Shown piece after piece: positions 8,177 through 14,683 of a DNA stretch of 64,000 nt. This DNA is from Chloroflexota bacterium (GTDB lineage Bacteria; Chloroflexota; Dormibacteria; Dormibacterales; Dormibacteraceae). Under the pieces are notes generated by a model. The model was given only the letters and a program-made list of their open reading frames with translations. It searched no databases and was not told the origin of the DNA. Made by a program: the position numbers and the translations under genes. Every line of letters begins with the position of its first letter. Positions within the stretch are counted from its first letter, which is position 1. The stretch is from positions 62,001 through 126,000 of the forward strand of contig VBIW01000043.1 in NCBI GenBank assembly GCA_005880915.1, written 5' to 3'.

Positions 8177-8880
8177 GCACCGTCGCCTCTTTCCAGGTGG
8201 CAGCCAGCTCTGAGGCCGATCCCGAAGCGGTGCTGAGGTGGGCGTACGAATCCTTTCCCCGCGTGGTCATCGTGGCGAGCTTCCAGGCCGAGTCCTCTGT
8301 CCTGATCGACATGGCATCGAGGATCCGGTCCGACATTGCTGTCCTGACCCTCGACACCGGGCGGCTGCCGCAGGAGACGCACGACATGATCGACCGCGTC
8401 CGCGACCGGTACGCGATCGAGGTCCAGGTCGTTACGCCAGATCCGAATGAGGTTCAAGACATGGTCGCCCTCAACGGCACCAATCTCTTCTACGGATCAC
8501 CCGACCTGCGCCGCCTGTGCTGCAGCGTGCGCAAGTCGCGGCCGCTCGAGCGCGCGCTCGCCGGCTACGACGCATGGGTAACGGGACTGCGCCGCTCCCA
8601 GATCGCCACTCGGGCTCAAACCCCCGTCGTTGCGACCGATCTGGAGCACGGCGGAATCACGAAGATCGCGCCGCTGGCCTCCTGGTCCGCGGAGCAGGTT
8701 TGGGAATACGTCCACGATCGCAACGTCCCCTATCACTCGCTGTACGACTCGGGTTTCACCTCCATCGGATGCGCCCCCTGCACGCGGGCGACACAGCCTG
8801 GTGAGGATGCGCGCGCGGGGCGCTGGTGGTGGGAGCAGGGCGAGGTCAAGGAATGCGGTCTTCACTGGAGCAAGCCATGA
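8173..8880 (+). CDS. cysH: Adenylylsulfate (APS) reductase, thioredoxin-dependent, 4Fe-4S type
   Basis: A 235-residue PAPS/APS reductase-family enzyme giving sulfite from an activated sulfate. The catalytic Cys228 is in the KECGLH motif near the C-terminus. Cys116-Cys117 (CCSVRK) and Cys200/Cys203 (GCAPC) form the [4Fe-4S] cluster ligands that mark the APS-using branch; PAPS-only reductases lack them. It overlaps sulfite reductase by ATGA and itself overlaps the CysC-Sat gene by ATGA, so the three are cotranslated. The presence of an APS kinase next door means APS can be drawn either to reduction or to PAPS. Confidence 0.92.
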   Translation: MSTVASFQVAASSEADPEAVLRWAYESFPRVVIVASFQAESSVLIDMASRIRSDIAVLTLDTGRLPQETHDMIDRVRDRYAIEVQVVTPDPNEVQDMVALNGTNLFYGSPDLRRLCCSVRKSRPLERALAGYDAWVTGLRRSQIATRAQTPVVATDLEHGGITKIAPLASWSAEQVWEYVHDRNVPYHSLYDSGFTSIGCAPCTRATQPGEDARAGRWWWEQGEVKECGLHWSKP

Positions 8881-10523
8881 GCAAAGGATTCGTCGTCTGG
8901 TTCACGGGCCTGTCCGGCGCGGGCAAGTCCACGATCGCGACCGCGCTCCAGGCCGAGCTCGCTCGCCGGGGACGCAGCTCCGAGCTGCTCGATGGCGATG
9001 AGGTGCGCACGCACCTGTCGAAGGGACTCGGTTTCTCGAAAGAAGACCGCGACACCAACATCCGGCGCATCGGCTACGTGGCTCGCTTGATCGCGCGGAG
9101 CGGCGGCGTAGCCATCACGGCCGCGATCTCGCCCTACCGCGAGGTCCGCGACGAGGTGCGCAGCCAGACCCCCAACTTCGTCGAGGTCTTCGTCCGCTGC
9201 CCGCTCGACACGCTGGTCGAGCGCGATGTGAAAGGCCTTTATCGCAAGGCGATCGCGGGTGAGATCGCCAACTTCACCGGGGTCAGCGATCCGTATGAGG
9301 AGCCGCTCCACGCCGAGGTCACGTGCGACACGTCAAAGGAAAACCTCGCCGAGTCGCTGGCAAAGGTGCTCGACAGGCTGGAGCGCCTCGGCCATCTGCC
9401 GCGCCAGGTGTTCGAAAGGCTGCTGTCCGGTGACGAGCTGCAGGAGCATCGGGCCGAGGCGAGAGCTCTTCCCCGGCTCCAGGTCGGGCAGCGCGAGCTG
9501 TCGGATGTTTTCATGCTCAGCGCGGGCGCGCTCTCTCCACTGGATGGGTACATGGACCGCGATGACTACGAGTCGGTCATCGAGCAGGGCCGCCTGGCAG
9601 GTGGGGCGCCTTTCACGATCCCGATCGTCCTTCGTACAGGTGAAGTTCCCACTGCGGACCGGGTGGCACTTTTCGCCGGCGACAAGCCGATCGGCATCCT
9701 CGACATCACCGGCGCTTATGAAGCAGACACACGGCGTGAAGCGCTGGGTGTCTACGGGACGGAGGACGACGCGCATCCCGGCGTGCGTGTTTTGAAGGAA
9801 TCGGGGCGCTGGGCAGTGGGCGGAAACGTGGTGGCGCTCGCCAGGCCGAGCTCTGGATTTCCGGAGTTCGATCTAACGCCGGCGCAGGTCCGAGAGGTCA
9901 AAGCCCAGCGCGCCTGGAAGACGATGGTCGGCTTCCAGACCCGCAACCCGGTCCATCGGGCGCACGAATACCTGCAGAAGGTGGCGCTCGAGATCGTCGA
10001 CGGGCTGCTGCTCCACCCGCTCGTCGGCGAAACCAAGAGCGATGACATCCCGGCTGCGGTCCGCATGCGCTGCTACGAAGAGCTGCTCGCGGGCTACTAC
10101 CCCGCGGACCGCGTCCTCCTGGCCACCAACCCGGCGTGGATGCGCTACGCCGGACCGAAGGAAGCCGTTTTCCACGCCATCGTCAGGCGCAACTATGGCT
10201 GCACCCATTTCATCGTCGGGCGCGACCATGCCGGCGTCGGCAATTACTACGACACGTACGCCGCGCACCGGATCTTCGATCAGTACGCGCCGGGTGACCT
10301 CGGAATCGAGATCCTCCGTTTCGAGCACACCTTCTACTGCTCCGCCTGCGGCGGCATGGCTTCCACGCGGACGTGCCCTCACCCCAAAGAGCTGCACCGG
10401 ACTTTGAGCGGCACGGCTGTGCGCAAGCTGCTGGAAGAGGGCGCTGACCTGCCGCCGGAATTCACGCGGCCCGAAGTGGCGCGCGTGTTGCTCGATGCGT
10501 CGAAGGAAGAGGCGACGGCGTGA
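8877..10523 (+). CDS. Bifunctional APS kinase / ATP sulfurylase (CysC-Sat fusion)
   Basis: A 548-residue fusion. Residues 1 to about 175 are APS kinase, with the P-loop GLSGAGKST (11-19), DGDEVRTHL and the DTNIRRIGYVA segment. Residues about 190-548 are a Sat-type ATP sulfurylase, with QTRNPVHRAHE (from Gln354), the GRDHAGVG motif and a Cys-rich patch FYCSACGG that matches the zinc site of bacterial Sat. ATG 8877 is used since it overlaps the cysH stop; the kinase domain begins at once. Kinase-first order is that of animal PAPS synthases. No CysD/CysN is present, so this protein is the sulfate-activating enzyme of the operon. Confidence 0.93.
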   Translation: MSKGFVVWFTGLSGAGKSTIATALQAELARRGRSSELLDGDEVRTHLSKGLGFSKEDRDTNIRRIGYVARLIARSGGVAITAAISPYREVRDEVRSQTPNFVEVFVRCPLDTLVERDVKGLYRKAIAGEIANFTGVSDPYEEPLHAEVTCDTSKENLAESLAKVLDRLERLGHLPRQVFERLLSGDELQEHRAEARALPRLQVGQRELSDVFMLSAGALSPLDGYMDRDDYESVIEQGRLAGGAPFTIPIVLRTGEVPTADRVALFAGDKPIGILDITGAYEADTRREALGVYGTEDDAHPGVRVLKESGRWAVGGNVVALARPSSGFPEFDLTPAQVREVKAQRAWKTMVGFQTRNPVHRAHEYLQKVALEIVDGLLLHPLVGETKSDDIPAAVRMRCYEELLAGYYPADRVLLATNPAWMRYAGPKEAVFHAIVRRNYGCTHFIVGRDHAGVGNYYDTYAAHRIFDQYAPGDLGIEILRFEHTFYCSACGGMASTRTCPHPKELHRTLSGTAVRKLLEEGADLPPEFTRPEVARVLLDASKEEATA

Positions 10524-11833
10524 GGTATTACCCGGTGTTTCTCGACCTCGCCCACCAACCGTGCGTCGTCCTGGGCGACGGCAAGCTGGCGATGGAAAAA
10601 GCCGCTGCACTGCGCGAGGCGGGCGCGGAGGTGCGCGTCATCCCGGCCCGCAACTACAAACAGGGCGACCTCGCCGGCGCCAGGCTGGTGTTCGATGCGA
10701 GTGACGACCCGGCGATCAACCGCCAGAGCTGGGAGGAAGCGGAGGCGGCCGGCATCCTGATCAACGTGGTCGACAGGACCGCCCAATGCCGGTTCATCGC
10801 CCCCGCAATCGTTCGCCGGGACCCGGTATTGATCGCAATCTCAACCTCTGGCGAAAGTCCCTTCCTCGCCTCTGCCCTGCGCGCCCGCCTCGAACGCTGG
10901 TTGGGCAGGGAGTGGGGGCCGTTCACCGAGCTGGTGGGCCGGATCCGGCGTGGGCTCCGCGAGCGCGGCGTGCCAATAGCGGAACAGACGAAGGTCTATC
11001 GCAGGCTGGTCAGGTCAGAGCTGCGCGAGCTTCTTCGGAGCGGCCGGGGCCAGGAGGCGGAGGTCCTTGCGGCGAGCCTCGCCCGACCCGGCGATCATGG
11101 GGGCAGGGTGGCGCTGGTCGGAGCGGGCCCTGGGGATTCGGACCTCATCACGGTGAAGGCGCGGGATCTGCTGGCGGACGCGGACTTCGTTCTGCACGAC
11201 GCGCTCATCTCGCCCGAGACGCTGGCGCTCTGCGGTCCGGGAGCGATCCTCGAGCCGGTGGGGAAGCGTGGCGGAGGTGACAGCACAGGCCAGGACGAGA
11301 TCACCGATCGGATGATCGAGCTGGCCCGCTCAGGTCACTTCGTCGTCCGCCTCAAAGGCGGCGATCCCTTCGTTTTCGGCCGTGGTGGGGAAGAGCTCAG
11401 GGACCTGATCGATGCCGGGATCGACGTGGTGGTCGTGCCCGGCGTTTCGTCAGCCGTCGCGGCGGCGTCATCGATCGGCGTGCCGGTCACGCTGAGAGGC
11501 GTCGCCTCCTCGGTCGCGATCACGACCGCAACAGGCTCGGACTGGCCAGGGCGAATCCGCGACCTGGCGCGAGCCAGCGACACCCTGGTCGTCCTGATGT
11601 GCCGCGCGAACCTGGCCGAGGTGGCCGCGCACGTGGCGACGGCAGTAGGCGGATCGCGGCCTGCGGCCGTGGTCAGCAAGGCCACGTGGCGGGATCAGCG
11701 CAGCGTCGAAGGCTCGATCGCCGACATCGCCCAGCTCGCTGACCAGGCGGTCATCGAGGCGCCGGCCACACTGATCGTGGGCGAAGTGGTCGGCGCGGTC
11801 GCCGCCCACATCCTGCAAGCCGTCGCGCTGTAG
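10520..11833 (+). CDS. cysG: Siroheme synthase (precorrin-2 dehydrogenase/ferrochelatase + SUMT)
   Basis: A 437-residue CysG-type enzyme making siroheme from uroporphyrinogen III for the sulfite reductase of this operon. The N-terminal domain (to about residue 190) is a Rossmann precorrin-2 dehydrogenase/ferrochelatase; its nucleotide loop reads VLGDGKLAMEKAAAL, with Asp in place of a usual Gly. The C-terminal domain is uroporphyrinogen-III C-methyltransferase with VGAGPGDSDLIT, RLKGGDPFVFGRGGEE and VPGVSSA motifs. The GTG start overlaps the previous stop (GTGA). It is the last gene of the run, and a convergent gene ends 14 bases beyond it. Confidence 0.92.
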   Translation: MRYYPVFLDLAHQPCVVLGDGKLAMEKAAALREAGAEVRVIPARNYKQGDLAGARLVFDASDDPAINRQSWEEAEAAGILINVVDRTAQCRFIAPAIVRRDPVLIAISTSGESPFLASALRARLERWLGREWGPFTELVGRIRRGLRERGVPIAEQTKVYRRLVRSELRELLRSGRGQEAEVLAASLARPGDHGGRVALVGAGPGDSDLITVKARDLLADADFVLHDALISPETLALCGPGAILEPVGKRGGGDSTGQDEITDRMIELARSGHFVVRLKGGDPFVFGRGGEELRDLIDAGIDVVVVPGVSSAVAAASSIGVPVTLRGVASSVAITTATGSDWPGRIRDLARASDTLVVLMCRANLAEVAAHVATAVGGSRPAAVVSKATWRDQRSVEGSIADIAQLADQAVIEAPATLIVGEVVGAVAAHILQAVAL

Positions 11834-11847
11834 CGGCTAGCTGCGCT

Positions 11848-12057
11848 CTACGACTTGGCGCCCTCGCGCCTGGCCCGGAAGGTCGCGATGGCCGCCTGGC
11901 GGTAGCGCTCGGCCATGTCGACGTAGCGGGCTGTGTCATCGGCCAGGTCCGGGTCATGGTCCCTGTGCCTGCGGCCCAACGCTACTGCCGCGAACCTGGC
12001 GCCTCTCATGTAGGGCTCCAGCTGCTCAAACGGGAGAGGTCGGTCTCCGCGCGCCAT
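11848..12057 (-). CDS. Hypothetical 69-residue helical protein downstream of peroxiredoxin
   Basis: A small charged, mostly helical protein (MARGDRPLPFEQLEPYMRGA at the start, and a His/Asp-rich middle, RRHRDHDPDLADD). A GGAGGTG Shine-Dalgarno lies 7 bases before ATG 12057, and the start is one base after the stop of the peroxiredoxin gene, so it is the last gene of that operon. No family is recognised. The His/Asp cluster could bind a metal, which is inference. Confidence 0.65.
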   Translation of the reverse strand: MARGDRPLPFEQLEPYMRGARFAAVALGRRHRDHDPDLADDTARYVDMAERYRQAAIATFRARREGAKS

Positions 12058-12058
12058 C

Positions 12059-12505
12059 TCAAGCACCTCCGCGCAGTGAATTGAACAACTCGTCGTCGGT
12101 GGGTCGGTCGGCAAAGTCGCGCCCGACATATTTCCATGCGATGGATCCATCGCTCCTGATTGCAAAGATCGACGGCCTGGCAATTCCGCCTTCGGTGTCG
12201 GTCCAGACGCCCCATTCCTTGATGACGCGGCCTTCTGGGTCACTCAGCAGGGGAAAAGGAAGGAGGAGCTTATCGACCATTGCGTGGTTTTGGTCCACTG
12301 AATCGACTGATATTCCGACCAGGCTCACGCCCTCCTGGACGAATCGGTCCCAGCTCCTTGCATACGAGGCCAACTGCCCGTTGCAGTAGGGTCACCAGTC
12401 GCCGCGATAGAAGACGAGGATGACCGGCGCGCGGGCCAGATGTTCGGCGAGCTTCCAGCTCTTGCCTTCCTGGTCGGGCAGCTCTAGATCCAGCGCTTGA
12501 GCCAC
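12059..12505 (-). CDS. Peroxiredoxin (AhpC/TSA family) with in-frame TGA at the peroxidatic position; probable selenoprotein
   Basis: Reading from GTG 12505 gives a 148-residue AhpC/TSA-fold protein interrupted once, at codon 38 (TGA, 12394-12392). The context is VILVFYRGDW-TGA-PYCNGQL. In this family the same segment reads FYRGxWCPYC, so TGA replaces exactly the first (peroxidatic) Cys of C-x-x-C, giving U-P-Y-C. The frame is open and family-like on both sides (upstream LELPDQEGKSWKLAEHL; downstream SLVGISVDSVDQNHAMVD and FPLLSDPEGRVIKEWGV), so this looks like selenocysteine insertion, not decay. A hairpin follows at once. Selenoprotein peroxiredoxins are known. Alternatives are a nonsense mutation or a read error (TGC to TGA). 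No sel genes are in the window. Confidence 0.75.
12370..12390 (-). promoter_or_regulatory. Candidate bacterial SECIS hairpin
   Basis: Directly 3' of the in-frame TGA the RNA can fold as two C-G pairs, a U-U mismatch and five pairs (ACUGC with GCAGU) closed by a five-base loop AACGG. Bacterial SECIS elements are stem-loops inside the coding region just after UGA with one or two G residues in the apical loop for SelB. The loop here carries GG. Its distance from the UGA (loop begins after about 9 bases) is a little shorter than in E. coli fdhF, so the assignment is tentative. Confidence 0.45.
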
Positions 12506-12541
12506 AGCTTTAGAAACGGCCGGCCTTGATTCGTGATTCCG

Positions 12542-12919
12542 TCAAGTCTGGATGCGGCGATGGAGCTGCGAGCTGAAGCCGAGCGCGGCGACCGGGACGA
12601 TCAGCTCGAGCACGGTTGCAGTCGCCACGAGGGCATCCGGCCTGTCGCGCAGGACGAGCAAGGCGACGATCGGTCCCGTGACGCCGATGACGGACGACGC
12701 AAGCAGAACGGCAAACCAGGCGCCATGCCCGCGAGCCGCAGTCGCGGCGAAGCCTCCGGTGATCGCGACCATCACGAGTATGGCGATGGGGATCAGCAGC
12801 GATACGGGGATGTAAATGTCACAGGCAGCACCATTGCATTGCGCGGCGATGGCCCGGAAGACGAAATACAGTCCGATGAGCAACAGAGTGGCGACTGAGA
12901 GCACGCGAATGGACCTCAT
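12542..12919 (-). CDS. Four-helix membrane protein, unknown function
   Basis: A 125-residue protein with four predicted membrane helices and a short external loop carrying two Cys (AAQCNGAACDIYIP). No family is recognised. It is the first gene of the minus-strand operon that continues with the probable selenoprotein peroxiredoxin (36 bases downstream) and a 69-residue protein. The paired Cys on the loop could exchange disulfides with a thiol peroxidase, but that is inference from the neighbourhood. It diverges from the DNA ligase gene, leaving only 24 bases between the two starts. Confidence 0.7.
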   Translation of the reverse strand: MRSIRVLSVATLLLIGLYFVFRAIAAQCNGAACDIYIPVSLLIPIAILVMVAITGGFAATAARGHGAWFAVLLASSVIGVTGPIVALLVLRDRPDALVATATVLELIVPVAALGFSSQLHRRIQT

Positions 12920-12943
12920 CCCAACTGGCTAAGGTGAGCAGCC

Positions 12944-14683
12944 GTGAAGTTTGTCGACCTGGCCGCGAACCTCGACCAGATGGAAGCCACGAGCAGCCGC
13001 AATGAGCTGGTCCGCATCCTGGGCGATATATACAGCAACTGCTCGACCGGTGAGCTCCAGCCGGTCACCTACCTGATCCAGGGCAGGCTCGCGCCCTTCT
13101 TCGTGCCGGTTGAGATCGGACTGGGTGAAAGGTCTCTCATCACCGCGATCGCGGCCGCTTACGGGGTGCCGAAGGAGGAGGTGACCAAGCTCAATCGCCA
13201 GACAGGCGACCTGGGCCTCACCGCGCAGGCCCTGGCGAAGGCCTCGCCGAGGGACTCGCCATCGGTGGTCGAGGTGCACGAGCGCCTCAGCCAGATCGCC
13301 GCGGCGTCCGGTGCCGGCAGCGTGCAGCAGAAGCTCGATGGCTTCATCGCCCTGCTGCGTGACCTCGATGCGATATCCGCCAAGCACCTCGTGCGAATCA
13401 CGCTCGGAAAGATGCGGTTGGGGATAGGCGATCCGACCGTGCTCGATGCGCTGTCAATGGCAAAAAGGGGAGACCGATCACTGCGACCTGTCCTGGAGGG
13501 TGCCTACAACAGGACCTCCGACCTTGGACAGATTGCGTGGACGCTATGGGATTCCGGCGAGGCTGGACTCGAAGCGCTGAAGGTCAGGGCGGGCCATCCG
13601 CTGCGACCCCAGCTTGCGGAACGCCTCCCGAATCCGGAGGCAGTGATCAAAAAGCTCGGCATGGTGGGCGTGCAGCCGAAATACGACGGCTTGCGCGTCC
13701 AGATTCACAAAGCCGCGGACGAGGTGAGCATCTTCTCGAGAAACCTCGAGTCGATGACGGAGATGTTTCCCGAGCTGGTCGCGGCCGCCACTGAGCTCGA
13801 CGTCGACAGCGTCATCCTCGACGGCGAGGCGATCGCCTACGACGCCGAGTCAGAGGAGTTCGTTCCCTTCCAGGAGACGACTGCGCGCCGGCGCAAGGAG
13901 GGGATTCAGGAGATGGCCGCGCGTGTGCCGATGCGAGCCTTCGTCTTCGACGTGATGTTCCGCGACGGATCCGACCTGACGCCGCTGCCTTACGAGCAGC
14001 GTTTCGCGATCGTCGAGGAGCTGCTCCGCGAATCCGACACGCTGTTGACAGCGCCCCTGACCAAGACCGATTCCGCTGAGGTCCTGACTCGGGACTTGCT
14101 CGACAACATCAGCCAGGGGCTGGAAGGCGTTGTGGCGAAGCGCCTCGACTCGCCTTACCAGGCCGGAGCTCGCAACTTCAACTGGGTCAAGTTGAAGCGG
14201 AACACGAGCGGGCACCTGAACGACACCATCGACGTCGTGCTACTGGGCTACTACCGGGGCAAAGGCAAGCGGGCAGAGTTCGGCGCAGGCGCCCTGCTCG
14301 CCGGCGTCTACGACAGCGACAGGGACGAGTTCGTGACGATCAGCAAGCTCGGGACCGGCCTTTCCGACCAGGGCTGGCGCGAGATCCATCAACGCCTGGC
14401 CAGCCTGGAAGTTGCCGAGAAGCCGCCCCGAGTCAACTCGACCTTCGTCCCCGACGCCTGGCTTCAGCCGGCGATCGTGGTCGAGGTCCTGGCCGACGAG
14501 ATCACGCCCAGCCCGCGCCACACCGCAGGCATGACCGCCGACCGCCCGGGATTCGCGTTGCGTTTCCCGCGAATCGTCTCATTGCGAACCGAGGACAAGA
14601 AGCCCGAGGACGCTACGAGCGTCCGCGAGATCCGGGAGATGTACGAGCAGCAGAGGCGGCCCGGCGAAAAGAAATCGAGCTAG
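12944..14683 (+). CDS. lig: ATP-dependent DNA ligase (archaeal/eukaryotic LigI type)
   Basis: A 579-residue ligase with the N-terminal DNA-binding domain (about 1-210), adenylation domain and OB fold. The adenylated Lys is Lys246 in PKYDGLRVQIH; other nucleotidyltransferase motifs are FSRNLESMT, ILDGEAIAYD, FVFDVMF, LEGVVAKR and WVKLKR. It closes nicks with ATP. The GTG start has an AAGGTGAG Shine-Dalgarno about 6 bases upstream. In bacteria such archaeal-type ligases are accessory to NAD-dependent LigA. No Ku or LigD polymerase gene is adjacent. Confidence 0.95.
   Translation: MKFVDLAANLDQMEATSSRNELVRILGDIYSNCSTGELQPVTYLIQGRLAPFFVPVEIGLGERSLITAIAAAYGVPKEEVTKLNRQTGDLGLTAQALAKASPRDSPSVVEVHERLSQIAAASGAGSVQQKLDGFIALLRDLDAISAKHLVRITLGKMRLGIGDPTVLDALSMAKRGDRSLRPVLEGAYNRTSDLGQIAWTLWDSGEAGLEALKVRAGHPLRPQLAERLPNPEAVIKKLGMVGVQPKYDGLRVQIHKAADEVSIFSRNLESMTEMFPELVAAATELDVDSVILDGEAIAYDAESEEFVPFQETTARRRKEGIQEMAARVPMRAFVFDVMFRDGSDLTPLPYEQRFAIVEELLRESDTLLTAPLTKTDSAEVLTRDLLDNISQGLEGVVAKRLDSPYQAGARNFNWVKLKRNTSGHLNDTIDVVLLGYYRGKGKRAEFGAGALLAGVYDSDRDEFVTISKLGTGLSDQGWREIHQRLASLEVAEKPPRVNSTFVPDAWLQPAIVVEVLADEITPSPRHTAGMTADRPGFALRFPRIVSLRTEDKKPEDATSVREIREMYEQQRRPGEKKSS

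Follow-up and report, generated by a model that had tools for sequence, protein, structure and literature searches.

Selenocysteine (Sec) containing peroxiredoxin-like (Prx-like) proteins with the AhpC/TSA domain (PF00578) and a UxxC motif have been described at least since 2005, in the available text under the labels 'Prx-like protein' (PMC1088965) and 'Prx-like 1' (PMC2398784), and are filed in Table 1 of PMC13188914 as 'Prx-like thiol:disulfide oxidoreductase'; PMC13188914 names WP_010940744.1 as a Prx-like UxxC reference protein. For the Sec peroxiredoxin, the motif PxxxTxxU is quoted in the available part of the latter source (PMC13188914). The locus considered here lies in a window of 64,000 nucleotides (the whole stretch of DNA that was analysed) and, judged by its sequence, appears to encode a UxxC Prx-like selenoprotein together with a helical-hairpin partner that looks obligate. 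In all likelihood the two genes form one unit, consisting of a Sec-decoded UxxC oxidoreductase of Prx fold and a dedicated helical-hairpin subunit. The features of the first gene (Sec-Prx) are:

12059..12505, minus strand: AhpC/TSA (peroxiredoxin-like) gene, very probably Sec-containing; GTG start at 12505, 148 residues, terminator TGA at 12061-12059
12392..12394, minus strand: in-frame TGA, codon 38, the U of UxxC, very probably read as Sec
12383..12385, minus strand: codon of Cys41, second half of UxxC, aligned with the peroxidatic residue of ordinary Prx
12356..12390, minus strand: candidate SECIS hairpin, apical loop AGUUG at 12375-12371, 16 nt after UGA, from the 41-nt minimum-energy fold

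The minus-strand frame from 12505 to 12062 (GTG...FYRGDW-TGA-PYCNGQL...) holds a single stop before its terminator, the TGA of codon 38. When Cys is put in for Sec, its translation hits Pfam AhpC-TSA at 1.9e-30 and scores 105.8 bits against PF00578 (cut-off 26), which places it in the AhpC/TSA family; with U38-P-Y-C41 inside this domain, it has the make-up of a Prx-like UxxC selenoprotein. The TGA at 12061-12059 is the true stop, because orthologues end at that position in TGA, TAA or TAG. A plain listing of open reading frames starts the gene at a TTG and gives 104 residues from which the active site is missing. A sequence-only reading of the locus had pointed to the FYRGDW-TGA-PYC motif with an open, family-like frame on both sides, to the truncation that standard gene calling would cause and to the small likelihood that TGA falls by chance on a catalytic codon; each of these points is borne out by the frame, by the ORF listing and by the comparison with relatives.

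Among 61 related genomes (the source genome included), 8 orthologues of at least 51% identity were found, each with TGA at this codon; one of them also shows TAA, which is its terminator. A codon shared by every one of these 8 close orthologues cannot be put down to chance or to a sequencing error. In the phylum as a whole, matches of at least 45% identity occur in 9 of 301 genomes, 8 with one TGA and the ninth (G178, locus L145) with Cys. Named genomes were scanned as well, which gave 116 relatives, 80 of them kept; since a Cys codon was part of one of the two scan patterns, the distant part of the list leans to Cys. The subfamily within the 80 comprises 33 loci from Chloroflexi, Rubrobacter, other Actinobacteria and one record titled Acidobacteria. 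Across 34 subfamily loci (the own locus and the 33 fetched), codon 38 is TGA in 26, TGC in 7 and GAC (Asp) in 1, counts that are not independent and not estimates of natural frequencies, since the loci were gathered by similarity with patterns favouring the subfamily and several genomes are related. Of the 47 distant homologues, whose identity is 37% or less, 46 carry Cys at this site, the motif leaving one (L098) unmatched. The alternation of Sec and Cys that the sequence-only reading had proposed to look for is thus present at this site.

The protein sequence is conserved on both sides of codon 38. Downstream of the TGA, comparison of the gene with six relatives gives a dN of 0.11-0.29, and dS is 1.0-2.1 in five of the six pairs, which is near saturation, the sixth pair not being estimable. 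The dN/dS ratio after the TGA is 0.09-0.14 in the five pairs with estimable dS. From this pattern of substitution, the frame is under purifying selection and translation evidently continues past the TGA.

The genome contains the machinery for Sec, another point the sequence-only reading had asked about: tRNA-Sec (72.4 bits, above the Rfam cut-off), selA (497 bits), selB directly after it (334 bits) and selD (337 bits), the last with one in-frame TGA, at GAGUACK. The source is a metagenome-assembled genome of 4.13 Mb in 228 contigs, 96.03% complete with 8.59% contamination, and the machinery genes lie on other contigs than Sec-Prx. The worry over contamination is eased, because selB is present in all six searched Chloroflexi relatives in which Sec-Prx is a separate gene (L051, L053, L054, L055, L078, L080). 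More widely, selB occurs in 19 of 22 searched Sec-form genomes, being absent from the matches in the other three, and in 5 of 8 non-Sec-form genomes (L070, L052 and L074 stand outside this count), so that its presence does not separate the two forms. The genome of L063 gave no selB match; the contig prefix of L063 is common with that of L074, a Sec form. Sec use in Rubrobacter is already known, since the available text of PMC5330540 names the tRNA-Sec of Rubrobacter xylanophilus and a table row of PMC1794560 is taken to mean five selenoproteins in that species.

Two readings would remove Sec from the gene. If the TGA were a real stop or a sequencing error, the gene would be decayed or would encode a shorter protein of 104 residues without active site, just as the plain ORF listing with its TTG start gives it; this is very improbable in view of a TGA shared by 26 of 34 loci, of a protein conserved on both sides, of a dN/dS of about 0.1 downstream and of the Sec machinery in the genome. 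Reassignment of TGA throughout the genome, for instance to Trp, would account for an open frame as well, since the frame is open with TGA read as any residue. It has an even smaller, practically negligible probability, for homologues carry Cys at the site, TGA terminates the Sec-Prx gene itself and those of four of seven relatives, and tRNA-Sec, SelA, SelB and SelD are all present. Taken together, the sequence evidence makes the TGA at 12394-12392 very probably a Sec codon, and the gene, as the sequence-only reading had it, that of a Sec-containing protein of AhpC/TSA fold.

The history of the site was traced in a tree of 42 Prx domains (28 Sec, 13 Cys, 1 Asp) in which the Sec site was masked. 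The tree needs only two changes between Sec and not-Sec, with several deep supports weak and the chosen outgroup not forming one side of a branch. In its Rubrobacter part, the Cys forms are nested among Sec forms and the Asp form is nested in the Cys group, while the Cys form L145 branches outside. The Asp codon is found at L075:962-964, where Cys41 is retained. At L076:1295, a Cys-form orthologue retains the hairpin pairs and the GU loop of the Sec forms, as if Sec had been lost recently.

Recoding of UGA to Sec in bacteria is assigned to a bSECIS hairpin with a loop of 3-9 nt, a G in the first two loop positions, a distance of 16-37 nt from UGA and a minimum free energy of at most -7.5 kcal/mol, as the rule is given in the available text of PMC13188914. 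The minimum-energy fold of the 41 nt of the own gene agrees with this rule (loop AGUUG, 16 nt from UGA, -14.3 kcal/mol). It is also the minimum in two of five own-clade relatives folded, the other three preferring another hairpin. The sequence-only reading had described a hairpin with a GG loop directly after the TGA. Such a short hairpin, CUGC-AACGG-GCAG, can indeed form, but the GG stands at the 3' end of its loop, the folding energy of the region is ordinary, and this hairpin is not the best SECIS model; the 41-nt minimum is the other hairpin, with loop AGUUG. Folding energy as proof of a SECIS was rejected, the z values being ordinary (-0.36 for 57 nt and -1.62 for 41 nt).

Codon usage after the TGA is more telling. 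Every one of the 26 Sec forms uses GGG for Gly at +5, versus 3 of 8 non-Sec forms (Fisher p 2e-4 with a background of 34%, for genes that are related and hence not independent). Among the Sec genes, 20 have Val at +8, and every one of them is able to fold into a common hairpin of 7 pairs with loop N-G-U-N, 20 nt after UGA, a hairpin that is not the minimum-energy fold in either Val-type gene folded alone (L027, L028). Within the eight non-Sec genes, only L076 has all 7 pairs (one of them G-U) together with the GU loop; L056 has the pairs without GU. In the own clade, all six genes carry Ala at +8 and use TTG for Leu at +7; this TTG places GU in a different loop, AGUUG, 16 nt after UGA; elsewhere in Sec-Prx and its six relatives, TTG makes up 4 of 76 Leu codons. 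The Cys form L062 also has TTG at +7. Loop and spacing agree with the bSECIS rule in 11 of 13 Sec genes tested (out of 26) and in 2 of 8 non-Sec genes, random synonymous recodings reaching 35-55%. Covariation is silent, all 7 pairs being invariant among the genes compared. The Rfam model RF00031 found nothing in the genome and likewise nothing in 14 controls, which makes that search uninformative, and Rfam on 12280-12420 gave two matches, both below gathering scores and taken as chance. Constraint on the codons and absence of the hairpin from most Cys forms, rather than folding energy or covariation, thus point to a SECIS at this place.

The peroxidatic motif of peroxiredoxins is TxxC. Aligned by phmmer, the WCPYC stretch of Sec-Prx (with Sec as C) lies over FTQVC of a solved Prx (PDB 2ywn), and BLASTP sets the same stretch over FTGGU of a TxxU paralogue in the same genome. 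In both alignments Sec38 falls on the Thr of TxxC/TxxU and Cys41 on the peroxidatic residue. The classical PxxxTxxC/U active site is replaced by RGDWUPYC, with Sec in the place of Thr. Because both alignments agree, the site is, as far as alignment can place it, a thioredoxin-like UxxC within a peroxiredoxin fold, and the earlier placement of the TGA exactly at the peroxidatic Cys has to be given up.

These alignments also bear on what the enzyme does. A Sec at the peroxidatic position of a standard peroxiredoxin, working like PrxU, would fit the AhpC/TSA fold and the motif, which is real; it is improbable, as Sec38 lies on Thr and Cys41 on the peroxidatic residue both in the solved Prx and in the TxxU paralogue, and as L075 keeps Cys41 with Asp at the Sec site. 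The gene product might instead be a thiol:disulfide oxidoreductase and not a peroxidase. The UxxC is a thioredoxin-type motif, and PF00578 selenoproteins with UxxC carry that very name in Table 1 of PMC13188914, but the closest solved folds, obtained with a model of the L061 fusion, are peroxiredoxins such as BcpB and AhpE. This possibility is less likely than not, though more probable than PrxU-like action.

The second gene of the unit follows Sec-Prx immediately:

11848..12057, minus strand: 69-residue protein, predicted as a helical hairpin (PYxRG module), with its ATG 1 nt beyond the stop codon of Prx; linked or fused to Prx in the subfamily
12066..12070, minus strand: GGAGG, ribosome-binding-like, inside the end of the Prx gene and before the downstream ATG, by direct reading of the sequence

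Neither Pfam nor NCBIfam matches the 69-residue ORF at E up to 1. The module follows Prx in all eight loci L021-L028. In the 33 named loci, it is an in-frame C-terminal part of Prx in 23 (the Chloroflexi L060, L064 and L073 among them), and 8 loci carry it as a gene of its own; L069 and L077 have it broken or in another frame, and in L081 it is in frame and partly scrambled. Fusion is found in most Rubrobacter-type loci and in some Chloroflexi. Profiles of the standalone and the fused module match each other in hhalign at a probability of 99.5% and E 3.4e-23. Searched by profile at E up to 0.01, 32 of the 33 named loci contain the module, as do L022, L143 and L145, and in L052 its first 14 residues are visible at a contig end. 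The module is present in all 37 distinct subfamily loci (one seen in part; L144, which repeats L073, was left out), with weak scores in L069, L081 and L145. The search covered the 301 genomes of the phylum and the fetched loci. Nine of the 301 contain the module, eight of them beside or fused to Sec-Prx, and in the ninth it is fused to what is left of a Prx at the end of a contig, the active site lying outside the visible part. None of the 47 distant Cys homologues has it within the fetched flanks. The sequence-only reading had named the 69-residue helical protein as a possible partner, which this linkage upholds. In the complete genome of Rubrobacter marinus (L077:3090-3760), the module stands in another frame than Sec-Prx, through a linker frameshift, a split gene or a sequence error.

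The predicted structure of the 69-residue protein alone has two helices (10-30 and 38-68; pLDDT 87.5, pTM 0.66), and a fold search with it gave no PDB match at E up to 0.001. The Rubrobacteraceae fusion L061, modelled from an alignment of 28 rows (pLDDT 91.4, pTM 0.88), is predicted as a Prx domain followed by a hairpin of helices 191-214 and 218-247; its best PDB matches in Foldseek are the peroxiredoxins mentioned above.

On the same strand upstream of Sec-Prx lies one further small gene:

12542-12919, minus strand: predicted membrane protein of 125 residues with CNGAAC

It has no Pfam or NCBIfam match. The sequence-only reading had considered this small membrane protein with a Cys pair as a second partner, a candidate that was rejected, since it is matched in its own genome only and in none of 41 other loci, a set that includes several duplicates and some loci whose upstream flanks are short. 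A scan of 11800-13000 for promoters and terminators gave nothing. Converging on the unit from the plus strand (8826-11833) are an APS kinase/ATP sulfurylase fusion and then a siroheme-synthase-type gene, that is, sulfur assimilation beside a selenoprotein. Other Sec proteins of this fold were met in passing. The TxxU-type peroxiredoxin of the same genome (FYVLDFTGGU) is on another contig (G000:C91:16139-16564; L140:1619-2086, minus), and 15 of 22 loci from related genomes (L029-L050) have the motif FYVxDFxxGU. In another family of the phylum (L146-L148 and G099:C11), one genome can have two or three Sec AhpC/TSA matches near each other; L146-L148 show the motif FYRAFWU after Pro/Thr-rich stretches. 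L041 (G026) is a Sec AhpC/TSA protein with the motif FYRSANWUPYC and a long C-terminal extension, the hairpin module being absent.

For Sec insertion, for the activity and substrate of the enzyme and for the physical role of the module, we infer the following course. The UGA of codon 38 would be decoded as Sec by SelB and tRNA-Sec together with a hairpin within the 40 nt that follow. Sec38 and Cys41 would then form the UxxC redox pair, in which the Sec38 selenolate likely attacks a peroxide or a disulfide; resolution of the product by Cys41 would give a selenenylsulfide, which a cellular thiol, for instance thioredoxin, would reduce. The downstream gene is probably translationally coupled, and its product would serve as a dedicated subunit of Sec-Prx; packed on the Prx domain, the hairpin may shape the oligomer, or cover or present the Sec site. 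A further reading, for which the chances are about even, makes the PYxRG hairpin an undescribed dedicated subunit that was paired with a Cys ancestor and kept when Sec arose, today a coupled gene in some Chloroflexi and a C-terminal fusion in Rubrobacter, and belonging to the active unit, where it would cover or present the Sec site; later, in Rubrobacter, Cys would have replaced Sec, and in one lineage Asp would stand in its place, while the recoding signal decayed. The pairing would date back to the Cys ancestor because L145 has both the Cys form and the module. If this history is true, the clade is a natural series for watching Sec being given up. In any case, the family offers a compact test set, with Sec, Cys and Asp forms, a partner fused or unfused and two places where the hairpin of the recoding signal may lie. 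The two Sec peroxiredoxins of one genome share a fold in which their Sec positions differ by three residues, so that the roles of both active-site positions are directly comparable. The 104-residue stump also illustrates how easily selenoproteins are truncated or missed in metagenome bins.

Compared with the known systems, Sec-Prx shares the Prx-like redox fold with the SelL-related proteins (NCBIfam NF040769), against which it scores 45.6 bits for a cut-off of 120, and no NCBIfam model passed its cut-off for this protein. The Sec peroxiredoxin PrxU (PF00578; NCBIfam NF040737, 45.9 bits for a cut-off of 270), represented in the genome by the TxxU paralogue, has the same fold and likewise contains Sec, but places it three residues later, at the peroxidatic position. 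The FYRGDWCPYC proteins of Flavobacteria and others (L083-L093 and L095-L130), at most 37% identical, share the motif with Cys at the Sec site and, unlike the Sec-Prx subfamily, have the hairpin module in none of 47 loci. Closest are the Prx-like UxxC selenoproteins of PF00578, which are alike in the AhpC/TSA domain, in Sec within UxxC and in having known Cys homologues; the descriptions available, on which the comparison was based, say nothing of a helical hairpin, whether fused or paired. In the part of the literature covered, which is weak evidence of absence, no publication on the pairing of a UxxC Prx with a helical partner was found. UxxC Prx-like selenoproteins as a class are already known, and the 69-residue partner hairpin looks to be the new part of the system.
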